Of a stretch of 64,000 nt of DNA, positions 11,212 through 54,858 are shown piece after piece (position 1 is the first letter of the stretch; every line of letters starts with the position of its first letter). The stretch comes from Bacteroidales bacterium (GTDB taxonomy: Bacteria > Bacteroidota > Bacteroidia > Bacteroidales > UBA932). The notes beneath the pieces are model-generated. The model was not told the origin of the DNA. It was given only the letters and a program-made list of their open reading frames with translations, and did not search any database. Location: assembly GCA_021443665.1 (NCBI GenBank), contig JABUTN010000001.1, positions 39,891 to 103,890 of the forward strand, written 5' to 3'. Position numbers and translations under genes: made by a program.

Positions 11212-11274
11212 CTTGGACAAAGTTGTTTCCTGTCCGGACATCGGGGCTGTAATTTTGCACTCAGAAACCGAAAC
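11212..11274 (+). promoter_or_regulatory. Second copy of the fimbrillin upstream block
   Basis: CTTGGAC AAAGT TGTTT N21 TAATTTTGCaCTCAGAAACcGAAAC; spacing identical to 9150-9212. -7 box at 11250-11257. Confidence 0.65.
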
Positions 11275-43536: not shown

Positions 43537-45276
43537 TTACCGGAACATCTGGACTATCCAATGTATGATCAGTTCGACTATTCCGATGCACAGAATGATG
43601 ATGTAGAGAACTATGCCCAGGACGAAAGATGTCAATATGCTGAGTCCCAGGTAATTTATCAGAAGAAACGCCGCAAGCAGCCCCAGAGCCGCCAGCAGAT
43701 AACCGAAGAATCCTCTGGCAAAGTATATCCAGATGCTCGAATAGTCCTTGCTTGAGGTTATGGTACTGAGGTAAAATCTCAATATAACTGCAAGGAAAAG
43801 AAATATCAGGGTCTGGGTTATGGGGACCATTTTAGTGAAAGTCCAGTCGGGGTTGTTCGTGACAATGGCCCAGGGGGCAACCGGATTGAGTTTGTGGTAA
43901 AAATTGAAGATGAAGGGCGAAACGAAGAGCGCCACAAGCCAGAAAGCGACGCCGGTGCCGGCATCTTTTAGGTTCCACAATTTCGTGCGGGCCCTGTCGA
44001 GAAGGGTTTCGACAGTAAAACTGTCCGCACCCGCCTTCTTCGCCGTCTCGAGAATTTTGATGGATTCCGCGCTGTTGCCTCTCTTTATTTTCTTTTCCGC
44101 ACTTTCCAGAAGTCCGGCCGACCATTTTTCGATGGGACTGCCGTCCGCATAAAAAGTGCCCGCGCAGATATATCCGACGTATGTCTCTCCGTTCAGTTCA
44201 TATTCGATGTAGGTCGTCTCGGCACGCTCCACGGCCGCTTCCTGGAAAAGTATGATTCCTTTTTCGGGCTCGGCCTTCCTCAGAAGTTTGGACAGAGCGG
44301 AACTGCAACGGACATTCTCGGGATACAAATCGCCGTCCAAAGAGTTCTTGCGGACCCGGTAATCTGTTCCGGACAAGGTCAAATCGTAGGATTGGGCGAA
44401 TTCCCTCACGCGAGGGTCGCATATATATGAAACAAGTGTCTCCTGGTTAAGGAATCTTTGTACAACGTATCGGAACTCATTCCGGCCCTCACCTTCGCAA
44501 ACGGAGCAGACAAGTTTGCCATCACCGCCGCAGGTTTTGCAGATGATGTAGCCCTTGGTGCAATTGGTGCAGGTGATTTTACCAAAGCCCTTGCATCTGT
44601 TGCATGATTCTTTGCCCTTACCGTTACAAGACCGGCATTTCACTTCCCCATAGCCATGGCAATAATTGCAAGTGGTAATCTCCTCCACCTGTTCATATCC
44701 TCCCACCTGCCTCTTCTGGATGTAATCCCAATGAGTTTTGTATTTGCTGACTTGGATTGTAATTGTACCTGATCCTTTGCAGTGGCTGCAGGGAATGTAT
44801 CCTGTGCCTCCGCAACTTGGGCAGTCTGTCTTTCCGCTGCCCCCACAACTCGGACACCTGAGATTGTTATAGTCGCCGTGACAGGTCGGGCAGACATCCT
44901 TGCCCTTTCCGTGGCAGGTATAACAGGTGTTATGGCCTTCTCCGTCGCATCCGTCACATTCGCTAACGCTGGCCGAACCTTCAAGTTCATAAACCGTGTT
45001 CTTGTTTGTGAAATTGTCCGGAATCTTCATCCTGAAACTCCAGGGATCGACTGAATCGAGGGTAGGATACTTCTTCGGGGCAATGGGCCAGCCCGAGTAG
45101 GGACGACGCAGCATCTCTTTGCCACGGTTCTCATATTGGGTCTGGACGCTGCATTTCTGGACAAGACAATCGTCATTGACCAATATTTTGACATCATTGC
45201 CGTAATCCTTGAAGGGATGAGCGCTTGTCTTGCGGGAATATTCGTTGATCAGTCTGCGAACTTCACTCTCTTTCAT
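43537..45276 (-). CDS. DnaJ-type Cys-rich zinc-finger protein with C-terminal multi-TM domain
   Basis: About 12 CxxC units, mostly CxxCxGxG (CDGCDGEG, CYTCHGKG, CPTCHGD, CPSCGGSG, CPSCGGTG, CSHCKGSG, CNYCHGYG, CRSCNGKG, CNRCKGFG, CTNCTKG, CKTCGGDG, CSVCEGEG), no J-domain HPD, several hydrophobic helices at the C-terminus. Confidence 0.8.
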   Translation of the reverse strand: MKESEVRRLINEYSRKTSAHPFKDYGNDVKILVNDDCLVQKCSVQTQYENRGKEMLRRPYSGWPIAPKKYPTLDSVDPWSFRMKIPDNFTNKNTVYELEGSASVSECDGCDGEGHNTCYTCHGKGKDVCPTCHGDYNNLRCPSCGGSGKTDCPSCGGTGYIPCSHCKGSGTITIQVSKYKTHWDYIQKRQVGGYEQVEEITTCNYCHGYGEVKCRSCNGKGKESCNRCKGFGKITCTNCTKGYIICKTCGGDGKLVCSVCEGEGRNEFRYVVQRFLNQETLVSYICDPRVREFAQSYDLTLSGTDYRVRKNSLDGDLYPENVRCSSALSKLLRKAEPEKGIILFQEAAVERAETTYIEYELNGETYVGYICAGTFYADGSPIEKWSAGLLESAEKKIKRGNSAESIKILETAKKAGADSFTVETLLDRARTKLWNLKDAGTGVAFWLVALFVSPFIFNFYHKLNPVAPWAIVTNNPDWTFTKMVPITQTLIFLFLAVILRFYLSTITSSKDYSSIWIYFARGFFGYLLAALGLLAAFLLINYLGLSILTSFVLGIVLYIIILCIGIVELIIHWIVQMFR

Positions 45277-45279
45277 GGC

Positions 45280-45681
45280 TTAGTCGTTTTTAAAGATTGC
45301 ACGGATGACCTTGAAAAGTGTCAGAAATATAAAGACAAGAAAGATAATCGTCGAATAAATCGTAAGACCGGGACTGTATTCCGTTGAATGTTCTTCCTTG
45401 ACCGCGGCGTATGACGCCCGGATCTTTTCGAGAGGTTTCAGGGCTGTGGTGTCGCTCTGCGCCTCCTTGAAATCCCTGATGAACGCCTTGGGTTTGACCT
45501 GACTGAATACGCTGAAAGCGGTTTTTACTCCCTTGGCAGTGAATAAGGAATCAACGGGACACTCGGTATCCCTTGTACGCAGAGCGGCCCTTTGAACAGG
45601 GTCTTCAACCTTGAGAGATTTTTTCCCTCCGCAGCCGGCCAGAAGCGTAACGGCAAGAAGAACAAGCAAAAACCTTTTCAT
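45280..45681 (-). CDS. Hypothetical lipoprotein with C-terminal TM helix
   Basis: MKRFLLVLLAVTLLAGCGGKK lipobox; C-term TIYSTIIFLVFIFLTLFKVIRAIF. In operon with 43537-45276. Confidence 0.65.
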   Translation of the reverse strand: MKRFLLVLLAVTLLAGCGGKKSLKVEDPVQRAALRTRDTECPVDSLFTAKGVKTAFSVFSQVKPKAFIRDFKEAQSDTTALKPLEKIRASYAAVKEEHSTEYSPGLTIYSTIIFLVFIFLTLFKVIRAIFKND

Positions 45682-45686
45682 AATTG

Positions 45687-45694
45687 CAAAATTA
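45687..45694 (-). promoter_or_regulatory. -7 box (TAATTTTG) for the minus-strand arm of the signalling island
   Basis: caaaatta on + strand, 5 nt upstream of the ATG at 45681. Confidence 0.5.
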
Positions 45695-45719
45695 CCAAAA
45701 TTATGCTAACTTGCAACGT

Positions 45720-46427
45720 ATGAACGACAACAAGTATTCATTTGTGTCTGCCCGTCAGCGGAAAGTACAGGAAACTGAGGAAAAGACCTCCTCAGAAATC
45801 CGGTGTCCGCACTGTGGGGCCACGGTTTGTGAAGACGATGAGATTTGTCCGTTCTGCGGCAGGCGGCTCGTTTCATACTGCACCTTCTGTGGGGCACAGA
45901 TGGAATGGTCCGACTCCGAATGCCAGGAATGCGGAGCCCCCGCCGACGGCATAAAATGCCCTTCCTGCGGCACACTCTCTTTCAGGTCATTTTGCCCGAA
46001 CTGCAACACGCCCGTAACCAAAGCGGCCGTGCGTATGCTTGAGGTGGCAAAAAAGGATCCCCTCTTCGCGGAGGCTGTCCGTCAGAACCAAAAGAAGGAA
46101 GAACTTGAGGGCCGGCTCGAAAAGGCTCCTGCAGACGAGACCGTTTCAATCAAGCAGGAACTCATCAAGGTTACGGACAATCTCAATCTCACATTGAGCC
46201 AAATGCTTCCTCCCGCCGGCAGCACCCCACAGGAGCAGAGAAACTATTTTTCCGCCCGCAAGTTTGCCGTAACCATAAAGAACATCAAGCAGCTCAGGTT
46301 GTGCTGGATCTGCAATTACTGCGGATGTGCCCACAGTCATCCTTCAGAATGTGTAAAACCCTATCTCGGCGGAAAATGGGAGTATGAAACCGTTACGGCC
46401 GACCACACAGAATACATAAGGAAATGA
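45720..46427 (+). CDS. Multi-zinc-ribbon protein with coiled-coil region
   Basis: CPHCG..CPFCG, CTFCG..CQECG, CPSCG..CPNC, and C-term CWICNYCG. Start placed at MNDNKYSF. Confidence 0.75.
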   Translation: MNDNKYSFVSARQRKVQETEEKTSSEIRCPHCGATVCEDDEICPFCGRRLVSYCTFCGAQMEWSDSECQECGAPADGIKCPSCGTLSFRSFCPNCNTPVTKAAVRMLEVAKKDPLFAEAVRQNQKKEELEGRLEKAPADETVSIKQELIKVTDNLNLTLSQMLPPAGSTPQEQRNYFSARKFAVTIKNIKQLRLCWICNYCGCAHSHPSECVKPYLGGKWEYETVTADHTEYIRK

Positions 46428-48502
46428 CAGCGCCCCAGAAAACAGCAGTAGCGCCGCAAAAGACTGCAGTGGTCCCGCAGAAGACGGCGGTTGCCCCGCA
46501 GAAAATTGCGGTTGCCTCGCAGGGTGTGAAACCGTCAGGAAGAACGGTGAAAGTCACTTCAGCGCAAATAATCAACAGCGGGGCTGAGGCCGACATCAAA
46601 ATAGCAGAAATAGATGACAAGAAATATGCTCTGAAGGTTTTCCACAAAGGCTTTCATTCTAACAAAAAAATCTATCCGACTCTCAAGCGGCTCGGAGGAA
46701 AGGGAGTCATCGCGGACATTTATGAAAGAGGCGTGAGAAAGGATGGCCTGGAGGTCGAACTGATGGAATATATTCCCGGAGGCTCACTTGCACGCTACGA
46801 CTTGAAAGGGAATGCAGCGGCAATCACGACCATAGTGCTCCGCACGGCGATGGCCCTTGAAACCTGCCATAAATACGGAATCATCCACAAGGACATAAAG
46901 CCTGCCAACATCCTTGTAAAGGATACCTCGGTCTGGGACTGCGTATTGTGCGATTTCGGAATTGCCGATATGGTCAACAGCGAGGGAAAGGTCATCACCA
47001 AGCAGTCCCGCACGCCCATATACGCCGCTCCGGAAATCTATGACCCGTCCTGCGCAAAAGCGAAAATCGATGGCAATGATCTGTTTGAGATAACACCCGC
47101 GGCAGATTTCTATTCACTCGGAATGACCGCCCTCTGCCTGTGGTCCGGCGAAGAAGCTTTCAAGGCGGAGGAAGAGCAGATGGCTATACAGAAAATCGAC
47201 CGCGGCATTCCTCTGCCGAACAATATGCCTGAACGCTTGAGGAACATAGTCGCGGGTCTGCTGAAGAAAAATCCGTCTGAGCGTTGGAGGCTGAAGGACA
47301 TTGAGAAGAGCCTAGGCGGACATTGGGCGGTGATGCATACGCTGCACCCGCTGAGTGACGTCAAGTTGGACTCCGACCCGAAGGGCAAGGATTATGCCAT
47401 GACAGGCAAGGCCATTGGAGAATTCCTGAATAAGGTGTATATGTGGCAATTCGGAGATGCAAAAGCGCCTGCGGATGCTAAAATATGCCAGGCCATAGTG
47501 GACAGTTTCTCCGACTATGCGGGTTCATATATGCAGCTGTTCTTCGAAAGCAAGGGGGATTACCTGAAGAAGCAGGAGAGTTGGATGAGATATTGCTGCG
47601 ACTGGAGTTCGAAAGACAATGCGGGCAAGGCAGGCCCTCAGGATGAGGACACAAGGCTCGAGATTTCAATGATGAAGACCATAAAAGGCTTCGGTTTCAC
47701 TCCTTACTATGAATTTGAGAATGACACTGTAACCGCTTTGGACGAACTCCGGAAAACTGAGCTTCGCAATCAAAGATATGGTCTGAGCCATGGTTTGAAA
47801 GGCTGGCTTGCAGTCCAGTTCCACGAAAATCCCGACACCGACCTTTCGGTGAAGTACAAATATGAGCGTCTGCTGGAAGAATATCTTCTTGAAATTGAAA
47901 AGATATACCCGAAAGCCGATGAATGCGCTTACTTCAGAAATGCCTGCGGCAAGGAGAAGGAACTTGAACAGAAAATTTTGGACACTATGAGAAAAAACCG
48001 CCGTCATATACGGATCCAAACCGTTTTGGACATCTTGTTGGTGGTCATTCCTATGTTGGTGATTGTCATTCTGGCTTTTGGCTTTCTTCATCACAAGACC
48101 CGTTTCTTTTATTTTGTCACACTTGCCGCCGCAATCTGCCTGCTGGTGCTTACGCTGGTCAAAGTCCTTTTCCACAAGTACAAACATGCTGTGAACGACA
48201 GGATTGTCAAAAATATGGTCAAGGGCAAGGCTCCGGAGATCGGATATGAAGAGAGGGTCATTGAGCCTTTGTATTATGCCTTCAGCATAGGGAGGGAATT
48301 TGATTCCTCCCTTAACGGAATCATCAATAACCAGATATTCATCGGTTGGGGATATTACATTAAGGAACGCAGAAAGAAACTGATCAAGCATATAGCAGCC
48401 GCTCTGCTTGTCGTGGCCCTTGCCTGTATGGCTCTTCCCAAACCGAAATACCTGTTCAAGTCAGACACAAAAATTGAAACACCCAATGAGCAAGTGCAGT
48501 AA
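46424..48502 (+). CDS. Eukaryotic-like Ser/Thr protein kinase with C-terminal TM helices
   Basis: KYALKVFHKG (catalytic Lys), YGIIHKDIKPANILVKD (HxD..N loop), CDFGIADM (DFG), TPIYAAPE; TM segments near the C-terminus. ATGA overlap with the upstream gene. Confidence 0.9.
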   Translation: MTAPQKTAVAPQKTAVVPQKTAVAPQKIAVASQGVKPSGRTVKVTSAQIINSGAEADIKIAEIDDKKYALKVFHKGFHSNKKIYPTLKRLGGKGVIADIYERGVRKDGLEVELMEYIPGGSLARYDLKGNAAAITTIVLRTAMALETCHKYGIIHKDIKPANILVKDTSVWDCVLCDFGIADMVNSEGKVITKQSRTPIYAAPEIYDPSCAKAKIDGNDLFEITPAADFYSLGMTALCLWSGEEAFKAEEEQMAIQKIDRGIPLPNNMPERLRNIVAGLLKKNPSERWRLKDIEKSLGGHWAVMHTLHPLSDVKLDSDPKGKDYAMTGKAIGEFLNKVYMWQFGDAKAPADAKICQAIVDSFSDYAGSYMQLFFESKGDYLKKQESWMRYCCDWSSKDNAGKAGPQDEDTRLEISMMKTIKGFGFTPYYEFENDTVTALDELRKTELRNQRYGLSHGLKGWLAVQFHENPDTDLSVKYKYERLLEEYLLEIEKIYPKADECAYFRNACGKEKELEQKILDTMRKNRRHIRIQTVLDILLVVIPMLVIVILAFGFLHHKTRFFYFVTLAAAICLLVLTLVKVLFHKYKHAVNDRIVKNMVKGKAPEIGYEERVIEPLYYAFSIGREFDSSLNGIINNQIFIGWGYYIKERRKKLIKHIAAALLVVALACMALPKPKYLFKSDTKIETPNEQVQ
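46430..46513 (+). repeat. 21-bp tandem repeat (4 units) encoding APQKTAV-like heptads
   Basis: Translates to APQKTAV-APQKTAV-VPQKTAV-APQKIAV at the kinase N-terminus. Confidence 0.85.
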
Positions 48503-50912
48503 ATGCGGAAAGGAAAACCGCAACGAAGCCAAATTCTGCCGCTTCTGCGGCACGCCCGTCCGGCAGGAAGGCAGATTCCCGGGCTTCTACGGCAAGAAGA
48601 ACACAGAAAAGGAATTTGCCCGCTTCGAATCGAGGGTACACGCCGCCGCAATGCTGAAGAAGGGCGGGGGCATAGGTCTCGACTGCCTGATTGTCGGGGA
48701 TGCCGGCACGGGAAAAATGTTCCTTGCCGGGAAACTGTATGACTTGATGCTTGCCAAAGGCGTTGTCGAGGACCCGAAATTCACCCACGTGGACGCGGCG
48801 GAATTCGACAAATGGATGGAGAAATTCGATGAGAACCTCAAGGCAGCGCAGAAAGGGGCGCTCGTGGTCACGAATGCGCAGAAACTCCTTCCTGAGGGTG
48901 TGGCCTCAAACGTGAACAAACTTGACCGTCTGTTTGCGCGGATGCGCAAAAGCGCGGACGCAATGCCCCCGGTGATGCTCTGCGGACTGAAGAACGGGAT
49001 GGTTCAGTTTCTGGAAAAGAACCCCGACACCGCAGCCCTCTTCGAATGCCGTTTCGACCTGAAGAATCTTGACAAGGAAGCGCTCGCATCCGTCTGTGCT
49101 GATATGCTCCGCAGCCGCTTCAAACTCGTTCCAACTCCGGAATTCCTTGAAAAACTTAGCAAACGCTTTGAATGGCTGATACGCAACAATGTCCAAGGCT
49201 GCGGCCATCTGGCCGAAACGGAGGCCCAAGAAGCCGGCGTGAGCGCCCTTCTCAGAAACAGTGCGGAGTTGATTCCCGAAGACATAAAAGGAGAGATTTT
49301 CGTGCCCCGCACAGAAGAGGAGATATGGGCTGAAATGGACAAGTTCGTCGGCCTCGCGAATGTCAAGAAGGCGATACATGCCATCATCGACCAGGTCAAG
49401 GAGACCCGCAAGGAGGGAGGCAGTCTGAAGTTGGAAGACCACTATGTTTTCACAGGCAATCCGGGCACGGGCAAGACCACAATGGCACGTTGTTTTGCCG
49501 ACATTCTCGGGGCTGTCGGCGTGTTGCCGCAAGGCCAGTTCGTGGAGATTTCCGGCAAGGACCTGATTGCCGACGTGGTGGGCGGAAGCGAGAAAAGAGT
49601 TCACGAAGCCACTGACAGGGCAATGGGAGGCGTGCTGTTCATCGATGAGGCCTATGGCCTGAATGACGGACAGTTCGGAAAGGCGGCGATTGACACCCTT
49701 GTGCCGATTCTCGAGAACGAAAGGGGCAAATTTGTGTGTATAGTCGCGGGATATACGGAAGATATGAGAAATCTCATAGGCTCTAACCAGGGTCTGAAAT
49801 CGAGATTCACCGGGACAATAGACTTCCCGGATTACAATCCCGAAGAACTGGAGTCCATATTCCGTTCGATGGCGAAGGCGAAAGGGCTGGAACTTGACGC
49901 GCAGGCATCGGAAATGCTCCACGTCGAGATGGAGAGAATGTACAACAAAAGGAATGCTGATTTCGGCAATGCCCGTGATGTCCGCAACCTGCTCAAACTC
50001 GCCGATGAACGCCGCAGGGCCCGCCAGAGGGGAAGTGCGGAGACCGACAGAGAGGGCAGGCTCCTAAAATACGCCGATATCGCCGGAAAAGAGGTGGATG
50101 AAGAAATCAGGCTGGAGGAGATTATGAAGGAACTTGATTCCCTCGTGGGTTTGGAAAGCGTGAAGAAGGACATCCGCGTTCTCGCCGCAGGCGTGCGCCG
50201 CGAACAGATGCTGTGCAAGGCATCCGGCAAGACGCTGAACCTTATCGCCGAGCATTATCAGTTCTTGGGAAATCCCGGCACGGGAAAGACCACGGTGGCA
50301 AGACTTATGGGAAAAATGCTCTACTCCCTCGGTCTGCTCAGCCGTCCCGATGTCATTGAGGTGGGGCGCGATGACCTTGTCGGCCGCTTCCAGGGCGAAA
50401 CCGCACAGAAGACAAAGGACGCGGTGATGAGGGCCATGGGAGGCATACTTTTCATCGATGAGGCCTATTCACTGATAAATTCCCGCAATGACTCCTACGG
50501 TCAGGAATGCATCAACACCCTTGTGCCTCTCCTTGAGAATCACAGGGGCAAGTTCGTGTGCATCTGCGCCGGATACACGCAGGAGATGCAGAATTTCATC
50601 AATGCCAATACGGGACTCAAATCACGTTTTGTCAAGAAAATCTCATTTGAGGACTACACAGCCGGGGAACTCTATCAGATTTTCCTTCTTAACTGCGGGA
50701 AAAAGGGTTTGAAACTTGGAGAAGGGGCGGCGGAAGCGGCCAAGGCCAGACTTCAGGAGATGTATGAGGGGCGCTGTGAGGATTTCGGCAATGCCAGGGA
50801 GGTCAGAACCTTCCTCTCAGAAGTGGAAGAGCGTCTCTCCGAAAGGATTATGTTTAACGAAAGCGCCACCACAGAAGAGTTGGTGACCATATTACCGGAA
50901 GATATATGCTAA
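48486..50912 (+). CDS. Zinc-ribbon plus triple-AAA ATPase, CbxX/CfxQ-like
   Basis: N-term CSKCGKENRNEAKFCRFCG; three P-loops (GDAGTGKM, GNPGTGKTT, GNPGTGKTT); the last two have intact FIDEAY Walker B motifs. Start trimmed to ATG 48486, overlapping the kinase end. Confidence 0.88.
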   Translation: MSKCSKCGKENRNEAKFCRFCGTPVRQEGRFPGFYGKKNTEKEFARFESRVHAAAMLKKGGGIGLDCLIVGDAGTGKMFLAGKLYDLMLAKGVVEDPKFTHVDAAEFDKWMEKFDENLKAAQKGALVVTNAQKLLPEGVASNVNKLDRLFARMRKSADAMPPVMLCGLKNGMVQFLEKNPDTAALFECRFDLKNLDKEALASVCADMLRSRFKLVPTPEFLEKLSKRFEWLIRNNVQGCGHLAETEAQEAGVSALLRNSAELIPEDIKGEIFVPRTEEEIWAEMDKFVGLANVKKAIHAIIDQVKETRKEGGSLKLEDHYVFTGNPGTGKTTMARCFADILGAVGVLPQGQFVEISGKDLIADVVGGSEKRVHEATDRAMGGVLFIDEAYGLNDGQFGKAAIDTLVPILENERGKFVCIVAGYTEDMRNLIGSNQGLKSRFTGTIDFPDYNPEELESIFRSMAKAKGLELDAQASEMLHVEMERMYNKRNADFGNARDVRNLLKLADERRRARQRGSAETDREGRLLKYADIAGKEVDEEIRLEEIMKELDSLVGLESVKKDIRVLAAGVRREQMLCKASGKTLNLIAEHYQFLGNPGTGKTTVARLMGKMLYSLGLLSRPDVIEVGRDDLVGRFQGETAQKTKDAVMRAMGGILFIDEAYSLINSRNDSYGQECINTLVPLLENHRGKFVCICAGYTQEMQNFINANTGLKSRFVKKISFEDYTAGELYQIFLLNCGKKGLKLGEGAAEAAKARLQEMYEGRCEDFGNAREVRTFLSEVEERLSERIMFNESATTEELVTILPEDIC

Positions 50913-51361
50913 AGTGTCCATTCTGCAGGGCTGAAGTCCCTGATGACAGCCATTTCTGCGACCAGTGCGGAAAGGTGTTCAAGTTCTGTCCCGAATGTGG
51001 AAAGCCGAAGATGGGGACCACCTGCGCCGCCTGCGGTGTCGAACTCATAACGGCCGACGCCCATTTCGGCGGCACTGTTCCCTGTGGTGCAACAGCGCTT
51101 TGCGGGGAAGGTCTGACGCTCACGCTTAAGGAGGGGGATTTCGGCCGCAGAGGCGGTATCTGGCCTGAATTCGTCAATTTCCCATACATCTCCGGCAACC
51201 ACGGTCATATTGGCAGTCAGGGAGATTCCTGGACAATTTCCGACCTGGGAAGCACCAACGGCACCAGGATCAACGGGAAGAAATTGCAGGAAAATAAGCC
51301 GGTGATGCTGCACATCGGCGATACAGTGGAAATCGCAACCTCAAAATTCACAGTCAAATGA
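50906..51361 (+). CDS. Double zinc-ribbon FHA-domain protein
   Basis: CPFC..CDQCG, CPECG..CAACG; C-term FHA signature (GNHGHI...WTISDLGSTNGTRINGKKL). Confidence 0.88.
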   Translation: MLKCPFCRAEVPDDSHFCDQCGKVFKFCPECGKPKMGTTCAACGVELITADAHFGGTVPCGATALCGEGLTLTLKEGDFGRRGGIWPEFVNFPYISGNHGHIGSQGDSWTISDLGSTNGTRINGKKLQENKPVMLHIGDTVEIATSKFTVK

Positions 51362-52128
51362 TATTTTCAGTCGATGCCGTTTCCCTCAAGGGAGCGGTCA
51401 GGGAAAACAACGAAGACTTCCTGAGCATTGCGGGACGATGCTTGCGGGACGACGTTCTTCGGGTGACCGACGAAGATGCCGGAGAGTGCTGGTACGCCTT
51501 TGTGGCTGACGGAATGGGCGGTCACGAGCGGGGCGAGGTCGCCAGCAGGGAACTGCTTGAGCATCTTCGCGACTGTTTCACTATGCGAGATTTTTCAGAA
51601 GAGGATTTTGAAAGGGATTTCATCCGTTCTGTCGAATATGTCAGCGCCTCTCTTAACGCCCGTTCTGCGGGACTCGGCCTTGAAAGGGCTATGGGCACGA
51701 CGCTTTGCGGCATAGTATGGATATACGGCAGGATGTACCTGGTCAACGCGGGCGACAGCAGGGTGTACAGGTGGCGCGATGGGATGCTCAGGCAGTTGAC
51801 CGAAGACCAGAAGGACGACAGGGGGCTTCTTCTGAACTGTGTGGGAGGCGGTTTGAAAGGGACTCCGCAGATCTGTGACATTACGGGTGAGGTGGCGGAA
51901 GATGATGTGCTCCTCATCTGTTCCGACGGGGTGTATGGCTTTATGCCGGATGACGAGATGGAGTATTATTTGACCATATCCCCAAGTCCCGCCGGGGATT
52001 TGTGCGGCAGGGCGGAGGTCAACGGCGGCAACGACAATGAGAGTGTTGCCGTGATACGTGTCGGAGGCGGGGATTTCGGTGGCTATGACTGCCCTGATGA
52101 TGACGGGCGCAATGACTGGTTTGCATAA
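51358..52128 (+). CDS. PP2C-family Ser/Thr protein phosphatase
   Basis: VRENNEDFL, FVADGMGGHERGEVAS, AMGTTLCG, NAGDSRVYRWRDGMLRQLTEDQ, ICSDGVYG. ATGA overlap with the FHA gene. Confidence 0.92.
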   Translation: MIFSVDAVSLKGAVRENNEDFLSIAGRCLRDDVLRVTDEDAGECWYAFVADGMGGHERGEVASRELLEHLRDCFTMRDFSEEDFERDFIRSVEYVSASLNARSAGLGLERAMGTTLCGIVWIYGRMYLVNAGDSRVYRWRDGMLRQLTEDQKDDRGLLLNCVGGGLKGTPQICDITGEVAEDDVLLICSDGVYGFMPDDEMEYYLTISPSPAGDLCGRAEVNGGNDNESVAVIRVGGGDFGGYDCPDDDGRNDWFA

Positions 52129-52129
52129 T

Positions 52130-52768
52130 ATGTATTCGATCAAATTGAAATTTTCAAAGCCTTGCGAGTCCCTTGAAGGGCAAAGCAAATGGTGGGGGGC
52201 TCCGGACCTCCCCGCTGGTTCTCCCTATCCCGTCGTTCACTGTGCGGAGGAAGGAGATGAATGGGATGAGACCCTGACCTTCCTGTGTCAGATACGCTGT
52301 GAGGACATTGCGGCCCTTGATCCTGATGGCCTGCTGCCGCACGGGGGGATGCTGTATTTTTTCGCCGCAGTGGATTATTTCCTGGGGATGGATAGCCCTC
52401 TGTACACGCCCATAGGCCCCTGGCGGTCCGAGAATGTGCGTGTGATGTACAGCCCGAGCTGTGAGGGCTTGCAGCCATACGAGATGCATTGGGAGGATAC
52501 GGGTGAGTCCGTGTTCCGGCCGGCGGAAAAACTGGAGTTCGAGAGTTGCGGCGCCTGTGACGAAGGGTTCAAACTCTTGGGAAGACCTTATATGATAGAT
52601 GTAAATGAAGAATATGATGATGACTATGTTTCGCTGCTCCAAGTCGATGAAAATGATGCTTGGGGTCTGCATTTTTATGATTGCGGTATGCTGTTCCTGC
52701 TTATCCGCAGGTCGCAGCTCCTCGGCAGGGATTGGGAAAAGACAAGCGCCTGCCTCCACTCCTATTGA
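52130..52768 (+). CDS. DUF1963 (YwqG)-like protein
   Basis: SKWWGAPDLPAGSPYPV...LTFLCQIRCEDIAALDPDGLLPHGGMLYFFAAVDYF; LLQVDEND. Start trimmed from 52058. Confidence 0.72.
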   Translation: MYSIKLKFSKPCESLEGQSKWWGAPDLPAGSPYPVVHCAEEGDEWDETLTFLCQIRCEDIAALDPDGLLPHGGMLYFFAAVDYFLGMDSPLYTPIGPWRSENVRVMYSPSCEGLQPYEMHWEDTGESVFRPAEKLEFESCGACDEGFKLLGRPYMIDVNEEYDDDYVSLLQVDENDAWGLHFYDCGMLFLLIRRSQLLGRDWEKTSACLHSY

Positions 52769-52790
52769 TAATCTTACAGAAGAAGAAATT

Positions 52791-53429
52791 ATGGACAATT
52801 TGAAGAAACTTGTGAATCTGTTTTCCGAAATGGTTGAGAACGAAGGGAATGGCCGGTGGAAGAATATCGCCTTGGGGCCCAAGGCTTTCGAACTGATGAG
52901 GGATTCGCTCCCGCTGAGAGTCAAAGGGGAACTGACCCCCTATACAAGAATCGTTCTTTTGGGGCAGATGATGGGCACGATGCCGGAAAGGGATTGTGCC
53001 AGGTTCTTTATGCAGGTGAAGGAATACCAGAAAAGTATGTTCCCTCTCATCAGCAGTGAGGATCTCGCCGAAGATATGGACATTGATGGCTACGAAGGCG
53101 ACCCGGAGATGTATGTCAGGCAATTCACCCTTCAAGTCCTTGAAGCGGGCATCAGGAGGACTGCGGAATATCTTGATACGAATGTTCCTATGGAGGAATG
53201 GTGTGACAGGTATGGTGTCTGGCTGAAGTTCGATCCCGTTGAAAGGACGGAGAAATGGGAGAAGTGCATCTATGAGGTGGAGAAGGAGTGCGACAGGAAA
53301 CTCAGGAACGAAAGCAGAGGTATGGGCTTCTGCCATTCATACTGGAGCACCAAGCGTGCTGTCCTCGCCAAGCACGGCATCAAATGGTCAAGCCCCTCCA
53401 TGATGAACCCCGGCGTAATGTTCGACTAG
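52791..53429 (+). CDS. Hypothetical protein, last gene of the signalling island
   Basis: MDNLKKLVNLFSEMVENEGNGRW...; the longer ORF from 52605 lies out of frame inside the DUF1963-like gene. Confidence 0.6.
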   Translation: MDNLKKLVNLFSEMVENEGNGRWKNIALGPKAFELMRDSLPLRVKGELTPYTRIVLLGQMMGTMPERDCARFFMQVKEYQKSMFPLISSEDLAEDMDIDGYEGDPEMYVRQFTLQVLEAGIRRTAEYLDTNVPMEEWCDRYGVWLKFDPVERTEKWEKCIYEVEKECDRKLRNESRGMGFCHSYWSTKRAVLAKHGIKWSSPSMMNPGVMFD

Positions 53430-53597: not shown

Positions 53598-54536
53598 TCA
53601 CACTTCGAGCCCCAGCCTTTTTGCCAATAGCATCTTATAACTTTCCTTCATCGGCTCGTCAAGAAAAGAGGAGTCTATAAAATCGCAAAATTCCGGGTAT
53701 AACTTGATATACTTTTTTTTGAGGTTGACGAAAACCTTCGCAAGGATACCGCATGTCTCGAACGCCCTCTCAAAATCGGAATCCTTAAGCTTCTTTTTCC
53801 TACCGTTCAGCGTTAACGCCAGTTCCTCGTCGTCGGCTGGATTCGCGATGACCCCATTCAGCATGTCGTATGCCGGAGTCAAGCGCACCTCGCCGCTGGG
53901 CTGATACAAAGAGAAATTCTTAAGGTGCATGTCGTTGTTGCCGGTCAGCCAGGAGAAATACACCACATCTAAGAAATCTGTCACATCCATTTGAGGATTC
54001 GACGAATACTTCCGGATGGTCTTGGCTATCTGCTCGTACGAGCTCTTGTATTTGAATTCGGTCTGACGCTCGGTGAGCTGACACATATCTTCCATGGGTA
54101 TCTTGTCCCCATTCTTTGTGCGGTCGATTCTTCTGGTGATGTAGCCGAGCGAACCATCCTTCATCCTTATCAGGGAGTGGGGGACAATCTTGATTTTGGC
54201 AAGACTGGCAAGATGCATCGTCAGATCTTCGTTTTCCGGCAACATGCTGAATCTTTCGGTCTGCGGCTTGAAGATGAAATCTCCCCACAAACCTACGATG
54301 GCAAGTTTCTGACTGTTCCGGTGCTTGTCCAGATGAAGCGGCAACTTCGGCTGGACACCAGTCAAGGTTGTCTGCGACCGGATGATCTGTCCAGCAAGAG
54401 CGTCCATCTCATTCCTTGAATAGTCCAATGCAGGAGCCTCGGAAGTCCCGAAGAACTTCTTGGCACATTCCTTATGAAAATCAACCTCTCCAGGGGTCAA
54501 TTCCCTATAACAAAACAGGCACTTACTCATTGGCAT
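53598..54536 (-). CDS. HipT/HipA C-terminal kinase-domain toxin of a tripartite HipBST-type system
   Basis: QTTLTGVQPKLPLHL loop, TGNNDMHLKNFSL catalytic motif, LTPAYDMLN metal-binding motif; Cys/His-containing N-terminus CLFCYREL...HKECAKKFFG. Confidence 0.88.
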   Translation of the reverse strand: MPMSKCLFCYRELTPGEVDFHKECAKKFFGTSEAPALDYSRNEMDALAGQIIRSQTTLTGVQPKLPLHLDKHRNSQKLAIVGLWGDFIFKPQTERFSMLPENEDLTMHLASLAKIKIVPHSLIRMKDGSLGYITRRIDRTKNGDKIPMEDMCQLTERQTEFKYKSSYEQIAKTIRKYSSNPQMDVTDFLDVVYFSWLTGNNDMHLKNFSLYQPSGEVRLTPAYDMLNGVIANPADDEELALTLNGRKKKLKDSDFERAFETCGILAKVFVNLKKKYIKLYPEFCDFIDSSFLDEPMKESYKMLLAKRLGLEV

Positions 54537-54858
54537 CGTCGTTTATCGTTTCAACGCTCACTGCACCGATGCAATCCTTGCAGCACAGCAGGAGAAGCGC
54601 ATAACGGTCAAGTTCGCTGATATCCGTGTTCCTGAGTGCCACATCCAGCAACCAGCCTTCCGGAATCAGTCCGTCAAAGAACGGGAACAGGACAGGCGAC
54701 TTGTAGGGTTTGTCACTGAGAGGCAATGTCAGACTGATGGCAGCAGGGGAGTCGGATGCCAGATATTCCGCATCGTATTGAAATTCGTAGCCCTCATCGG
54801 TTTCTTTGAGAATACCGGCCTTGATATGCTTGTATTTTATCAATGCGTCTGCCATCAC
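54523..54858 (-). CDS. HipS-like (HipA N-terminal subdomain) protein
   Basis: HipA_N-type AGILKETDEGYEFQYDAEYLA...AISLTLPLSDKPYKSPVLFPFFDGLIPEGWLLD; ORF overlaps the kinase gene by 14 nt. Confidence 0.88.
   Translation of the reverse strand: MMADALIKYKHIKAGILKETDEGYEFQYDAEYLASDSPAAISLTLPLSDKPYKSPVLFPFFDGLIPEGWLLDVALRNTDISELDRYALLLLCCKDCIGAVSVETINDDANE

Follow-up and report, generated by a model that had tools for sequence, protein, structure and literature searches.

Whether genes for a Ser/Thr kinase, an FHA protein, a PP2C phosphatase, an AAA ATPase and several zinc-ribbon proteins that stand side by side at positions 43537-53429 form one system, and of which kind, is the question raised by a 64,000-nucleotide stretch of contig JABUTN010000001.1 of a Bacteroidales bacterium (hereafter the window, which is part of contig C11 of a 1.79 Mb, 44-contig genome). 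The first-pass annotation had described nine genes there as a putative signalling island; all nine were recovered at its positions and on its strands in an open reading frame (ORF) check, and its domain assignments agreed with the Pfam matches (NCBIfam and PADLOC were also run). Sequence comparison indicates that five of them, encoding ZR1, the kinase, a zinc ribbon-AAA (ZR-AAA) protein, a zinc ribbon-FHA (ZR-FHA) protein and PP2C, are a genuine conserved cassette, which is unnamed in the open-access literature that was searchable, no description of the five-gene set having been found there. The core genes and the threonine repeats of the kinase lie as follows:

45720-46427, plus strand: core gene 1, ZR1, a multi-zinc-ribbon protein (Pfam DZR, 6.9e-8)
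46424-48502, plus strand: core gene 2, a Hanks-type Ser/Thr kinase with hydrophobic C-terminal helices (Pkinase, 8.2e-28)
46436-46516, plus strand: tandem threonine repeats at the kinase N-terminus, QKTAVAP, QKTAVVP and QKTAVAP, then QKIAVAS
48486-50912, plus strand: core gene 3, a zinc ribbon and three CbbX/SpoVK/EccA-type AAA modules (Pfam AAA, 1.6e-36, and AAA_lid_6)
50906-51361, plus strand: core gene 4, a double zinc ribbon and an FHA domain (FHA, 9.5e-13)
51358-52128, plus strand: core gene 5, a PP2C phosphatase (PP2C_2, 5.7e-10; motifs RxxNED, DGMGG, GDSR and CSDG)

The overlaps of 4-17 nucleotides that had been reported from the zinc-ribbon gene to the PP2C gene are exact, at 4 (ZR1/kinase), 17 (kinase/AAA), 7 (AAA/FHA) and 4 (FHA/PP2C) nucleotides. 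For ZR1, an ATG start at 45720 is more likely than the TTG at 45684; for the AAA gene, the ORF list starts at TTG 48408 and the ATG at 48486 opens the protein with MSKCSKCG.

Searches baited with the AAA protein recovered the order ZR1-kinase-AAA-FHA-PP2C in loci L021 (FHA gene at position 11235), L019, L020, L049 and L050 as well as in L087-L091, five genomes of another class of Bacteroidota, L089 starting at its AAA gene where the contig ends. A search with profile A4, composed of the zinc ribbon and the first AAA module, found the full set with the kinase alone moved in the Spirochaetota loci L136-L139. Altogether, the core occupies 15 loci (window included, the truncated copy L023 left out) in two Bacteroidota classes and four Spirochaetota genomes. 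The neighbourhood search proposed by the first-pass annotation bore out the co-occurrence of kinase, FHA and PP2C, together with a recurrence of its DnaJ-type zinc-cluster protein (L021, L139); its conserved unit holds for the five-gene core, kept in 14 further loci, and not for the nine-gene island. Neither a lack of conservation nor a constant location in type VI secretion system (T6SS), type VII secretion system (T7SS) or TerY-P loci, which the same annotation had named as fatal to its proposal, was found when looked for.

All 15 ZR-AAA proteins with at least three modules whose neighbourhoods were examined sit in a cassette, and the cassette was found in none of eight loci (L051-L053, L092-L096) whose AAA proteins are related but carry no zinc ribbon. 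SpoVK-type proteins occur in 204 of 300 Bacillota genomes and, among the matches listed, none spans the zinc ribbon; the AAA proteins found in plasmid searches likewise all lack it. The closest named relatives of the window AAA protein come from Bacteroidales metagenome-assembled genomes and include that of 'Candidatus Cryptobacteroides choladohippi', with 75% identity, and that of Bacteroidales MAG46, at 81% over a truncated end. In addition, the distance matrices of the five core proteins are correlated across 13 loci (Mantel r 0.78-0.90, p 0.0005), a pattern that would be expected of joint inheritance. That unrelated signalling genes merely happen to lie side by side, as accessory genes differing between loci might suggest, has consequently next to no probability: the same five genes, in nearly the same order, recur in 14 other loci and two phyla with correlated divergence, by which a chance neighbourhood of the core is refuted.

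The catalytic motifs of the window kinase are intact (ALK, HKDIKPAN, DFG and APE), and the cassette kinases in general possess the Lys (checked in nine Bacteroidota kinases), HxD and DFG, with YQD in L136. Their C-terminal parts vary, with hydrophobic helices in Bacteroidota and ankyrin repeats in L136. The N-terminal array reads QKTAVAP in the window, L021 and L023, QKTEAI in L019 and L020, EKTxRP in L049, EPTRKxG in L050, [DE]KT[VI]R in L087, L088, L090 and L091, and DSTQR in L136, and two weaker threonine-motif copies are present in L137-L139. Since the motif letters differ between lineages, it is the array as such that is conserved, not its letters. Of the 15 kinases, among which are close relatives, 12 have at least three copies of one Thr-containing tripeptide in their first 120 residues, as compared to 1 of 625 other ORFs from the same loci.

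On the reader side, the phosphothreonine-binding residues R81, S96, H99 and N118 of the FHA domain are invariant in 10 of 10 proteins, and the FHA motifs were found in Spirochaetota members too. Given this invariance together with the tandem Thr array, the kinase is predicted to write multivalent docking sites for FHA. The FHA proteins of L087-L091 themselves terminate in [DE]KT[VI]R or DATVR, matching the kinase motif of their own locus, and in L137 and L138 the FHA linker holds a TAAFDLN that resembles the TAGFDLN of the kinase; a kinase-FHA docking pair would be expected to leave traces of this kind, with Thr motifs that are matched, fast-changing and repeated. PP2C motifs are present across the cassettes, some simple patterns being unmatched in a few proteins. 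ZR1 is also kept throughout, with a C-terminal W-C-H-C-W segment for which no Pfam match was seen. At 46300-46400 this segment reads W-x-C-x6-H-x2-P-x2-C-x2-P-x3-G-x-W, conserved in distant relatives.

As for the motor, the triple-AAA architecture given by the first-pass annotation stands as far as the three Walker A motifs are concerned; modules 2 and 3 are intact, and the Walker B motif of module 1 is degenerate (TNAQ, not DEAY). The same plan is seen across the cassette, where two to five intact CbbX/EccA-type modules come after a first, mostly degenerate one; of the 13 AAA proteins compared, 10 have Asn instead of the catalytic Glu in the first module, and three, from Spirochaetota, keep the Glu. 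Module 3 of the window protein can be aligned to CbbX and EccA1 (DLVGRFQGETA versus DLVGQYIGHTA), its Phe occupying the position of a Tyr in both, which in CbbX belongs to the pore loop. The AAA and AAA_lid_6 domains, the intact Walker motifs and the aromatic residue at the pore-loop position are shared with CbbX (Rubisco activase), EccA and SpoVK; the cassette protein differs from these by three to six modules per chain, an N-terminal zinc ribbon and a mostly degenerate first module, and no Rubisco, ESX or spore genes were seen near the cassette. Scores remain below the cut-offs of the EccA (TIGR03922; 388 bits versus 466.65) and CbbX (369 versus 459.25) equivalogs, and module 3 passes that of SpoVK (438.8 versus 422.95 bits). 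SpoVK identity was nevertheless rejected for the whole protein, which is set apart by its further modules and zinc ribbon; Bacteroidales are not known to form endospores.

Taken together, the cassette is best read as a stand-alone phosphothreonine switch controlling a protein-remodelling motor, a reading to which we assign a probability of roughly 55%. A signal sensed via the variable C-terminal or membrane part of the kinase would lead to autophosphorylation of its N-terminal array, on which several copies of the ZR-FHA protein would dock; the FHA protein, by way of its zinc ribbons and together with ZR1, would then open the gate of the AAA motor or recruit it to the membrane, allowing it to thread or remodel a client, and PP2C would remove the phosphate marks and so reset the switch. 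Where the FHA protein of a relative terminates in the kinase motif, FHA chains or self-inhibition would be possible; the probable task of the DnaJ-type membrane protein is to bind or hold the client. A fuller version, to which we give somewhat less than even odds, would make the cassette an unnamed, cross-phylum, phosphorylation-gated AAA unfoldase, in which a phosphothreonine array that the membrane kinase writes on itself is read multivalently by ZR-FHA proteins (likewise markable and thus able to form chains), the resulting scaffold gates a multi-module CbbX-class motor and the system, independent of secretion systems, carries its own eraser.

Several points weigh against the phosphothreonine switch. 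The phosphorylation, binding and ATPase activities of all its members are predicted from sequence, and the C-terminal part of the kinase is without a solved-structure match (best E 1.8; model pLDDT 73). The array is reduced to two copies in three Spirochaetota kinases, the window FHA protein contains no copy of the QKT motif, and two-module ZR-AAA proteins exist without a cassette in Spirochaetota (L022, L140). Moreover, relatedness of the species accounts for part of the Mantel correlations, and some loci among the 15 are closely related to one another.

CbbX/EccA-class remodellers are common, and for most of them the question is how they are controlled in time and place. In the cassette, such a motor is accompanied by a full circuit of kinase, reader and eraser and by a recognisable docking array, and this packaging makes the control step directly testable with purified parts. 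Through the cassette, several zinc-ribbon and FHA proteins labelled 'hypothetical', from spirochaetes as well as from gut and rumen Bacteroidales, are also brought together in one system.

Control of a machine by phosphothreonine is known from the T6SS threonine phosphorylation pathway (PpkA-Fha-PppA; PMC5995506), in which, as in the cassette, kinase, FHA reader and PP2C eraser are encoded together. This common logic, an AAA protein of the EccA class (TIGR03922), the membrane kinase and the lipoprotein could be explained by a controller of secretion or envelope assembly, comparable to that pathway or to EccA in T7SS. The cassette motor, however, is a CbbX-class multi-AAA protein rather than ClpV, and zinc ribbons are found on three of the five cassette proteins. 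The VipB/TssC sheath protein (PF05943) was found in 0 of 15 cassette genomes, the E. coli control being positive, although Bacteroidales subtype iii T6SS may escape this model; the T7SS core ATPase EccC (EccC_b, TIGR03925) was also found in 0 of 15, and no constant secretion gene stands beside the cassette. Membership in T6SS and in T7SS was therefore rejected and a secretion controller appears improbable. This agrees with the earlier claim that, outside both systems, a writer-reader-eraser set is combined here with zinc ribbons and an AAA remodeller. The envelope role also suggested by that annotation has the membrane anchors as its sole support, no constant neighbour fixing the role.

The remaining four genes of the island are accessory to the core:

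43537-45276, minus strand: DnaJ-type CxxCxGxG zinc-cluster membrane protein, a recurring partner (579 amino acids, 12 CxxC; Pfam DnaJ_CXXCXGXG/BSD2_CRD)
45280-45681, minus strand: small lipoprotein, window-specific (LPAM_1, E 0.0025, under the cut-off)
52130-52768, plus strand: DUF1963 (YwqG-like) protein (DUF1963, 7.7e-19)
52605-53429, plus strand: last protein, a possible lipoprotein whose fold is without assignment (no Pfam match)

Judged by its distribution, the DnaJ-type membrane protein is a recurring partner of the cassette, with a divergently placed orthologue at the same place in L021 (51%) and the same architecture adjoining the Spirochaetota cassette L139, and the other three are lineage-specific. 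No orthologue of the small lipoprotein was found in the other cassette loci. DUF1963 is restricted to the window, L019 and L020, on the opposite strand in the latter two, which are rumen genomes, and the last protein to the window and L021, where its orthologue (63%) lies downstream of PP2C. Starting the last protein at 52653 brings a lipobox-like segment close to its N-terminus; its fold prediction (pLDDT 50) is not usable. Other neighbours include SUKH proteins in L088 and L090, a DUF123 protein in L087, a metallo-beta-lactamase-fold gene in L137 and L138 and a TPR protein in L137-L139. Such variable neighbours may be clients, sensors or passengers.

The first-pass annotation had also noted an absence of Ter genes, which applies to the window and its genome but not to two rumen relatives, since in L019 and L020 TerB genes lie upstream and an M48-TerB gene downstream of the cassette. 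All TerB genes of these two genomes are near the cassette on the same contig, and kinase, PP2C and zinc ribbon are common to the cassette and the TerY-P triad, which consists of the TerY vWA protein, PP2C and a kinase with a C-terminal zinc ribbon (PMC11090510). The cassette might accordingly be a distant TerY-P cousin, acting in a pathway against metal or oxidative stress that is linked to Ter, with its zinc ribbons sensing metal or redox state. In the cassette, however, FHA and AAA proteins are present, the zinc ribbons are on proteins other than the kinase, the C-terminus of which is hydrophobic, and no vWA protein was seen among the nine window proteins or the neighbours scanned, so that it is not a TerY-P triad. 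Moreover, TerB was found neither in the genome of the window nor in any of the four cassette genomes from Spirochaetota; on these grounds a Ter link common to all cassettes was rejected, and the stress pathway as a whole has little probability.

The island lies after atpA-atpG, with a GC content of 0.49-0.53 as compared to 0.57 in the upstream DNA, a difference that suggests its acquisition from elsewhere; a comparison at atpG made to find an empty site yielded distant genes only. A role in conflict or phage defence, in which the kinase/PP2C balance would be a toxin/antitoxin-like trigger, as in kinase-kinase-phosphatase (KKP) modules, and the AAA protein would act on invader or self proteins, would be consistent with this GC difference, with a patchy occurrence (3 of 150 family genomes), with hipA-like genes adjoining the window cassette and a TraD-type gene adjoining L137, and with the SUKH and DUF1963 neighbours. 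Furthermore, a module of the KKP type, in which a kinase carries FHA, protects against phage (PMC11341870). Like the cassette, KKP has kinase, FHA and PP2C within one operon, but the cassette has one kinase instead of two, its FHA is a separate protein, AAA and zinc ribbons are added and no prophage context was seen, and identity with KKP was rejected. On the other hand, PADLOC matches of the core proteins are to generic kinases or AAA proteins only, the core has no nuclease or other effector, and the neighbours are mostly ordinary (trigger factor-clpP-clpX-lon, UmuC, cation efflux). No defence-island setting was found in the flanks scanned, where PADLOC matches are mostly generic ATPases or ordinary Clp/Lon. 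Defence is thus considered unlikely, though less so than the secretion and Ter explanations. Some GAP1-N2 GTPase-centric conflict systems share the themes of zinc-ribbon kinase, PP2C and DnaJ (Kaur et al. 2020, PMC7159879); the cassette has neither GTPase nor vWA and has an FHA and AAA core, and identity with these systems was rejected as well.

Adjoining the window cassette at 53598-54858 on the minus strand, a HipA-type kinase is split into two ORFs, a HipA_C protein of 312 amino acids with an N-terminal Cys cluster and a HipA N-terminal-like protein of 111 amino acids, an arrangement resembling HipS/HipT. A TraD/TraG-type coupling protein gene lies beside the cassette in L137 (16764-18908), with a homologue in L138 (460-2568), suggesting a mobile element. 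In L136 (13564-19380, genome G731) the cassette adjoins the housekeeping proteolysis genes trigger factor-clpP-clpX-lon, possibly by chance.

Other AAA proteins were also encountered. A second, single-module AAA protein of 602 amino acids is encoded divergently next to the cassette of L049 (18126-19934, genome G043), and the two-module ZR-AAA genes without a cassette partner (L022, 9989-11836; L140, 8546-10381) have an RND efflux operon nearby. Proteins of about 1300 amino acids with three AAA modules and no zinc ribbon are present in many genomes of another class of Bacteroidota, among unrelated neighbours in L092-L095 (genomes G339, G211 and G455). Finally, a multi-AAA relative on a Calothrix plasmid (L054, NC_019728.1) stands among Hsp70, TPR, 4Fe-4S and GTPase genes and possibly belongs to another AAA-centred system.

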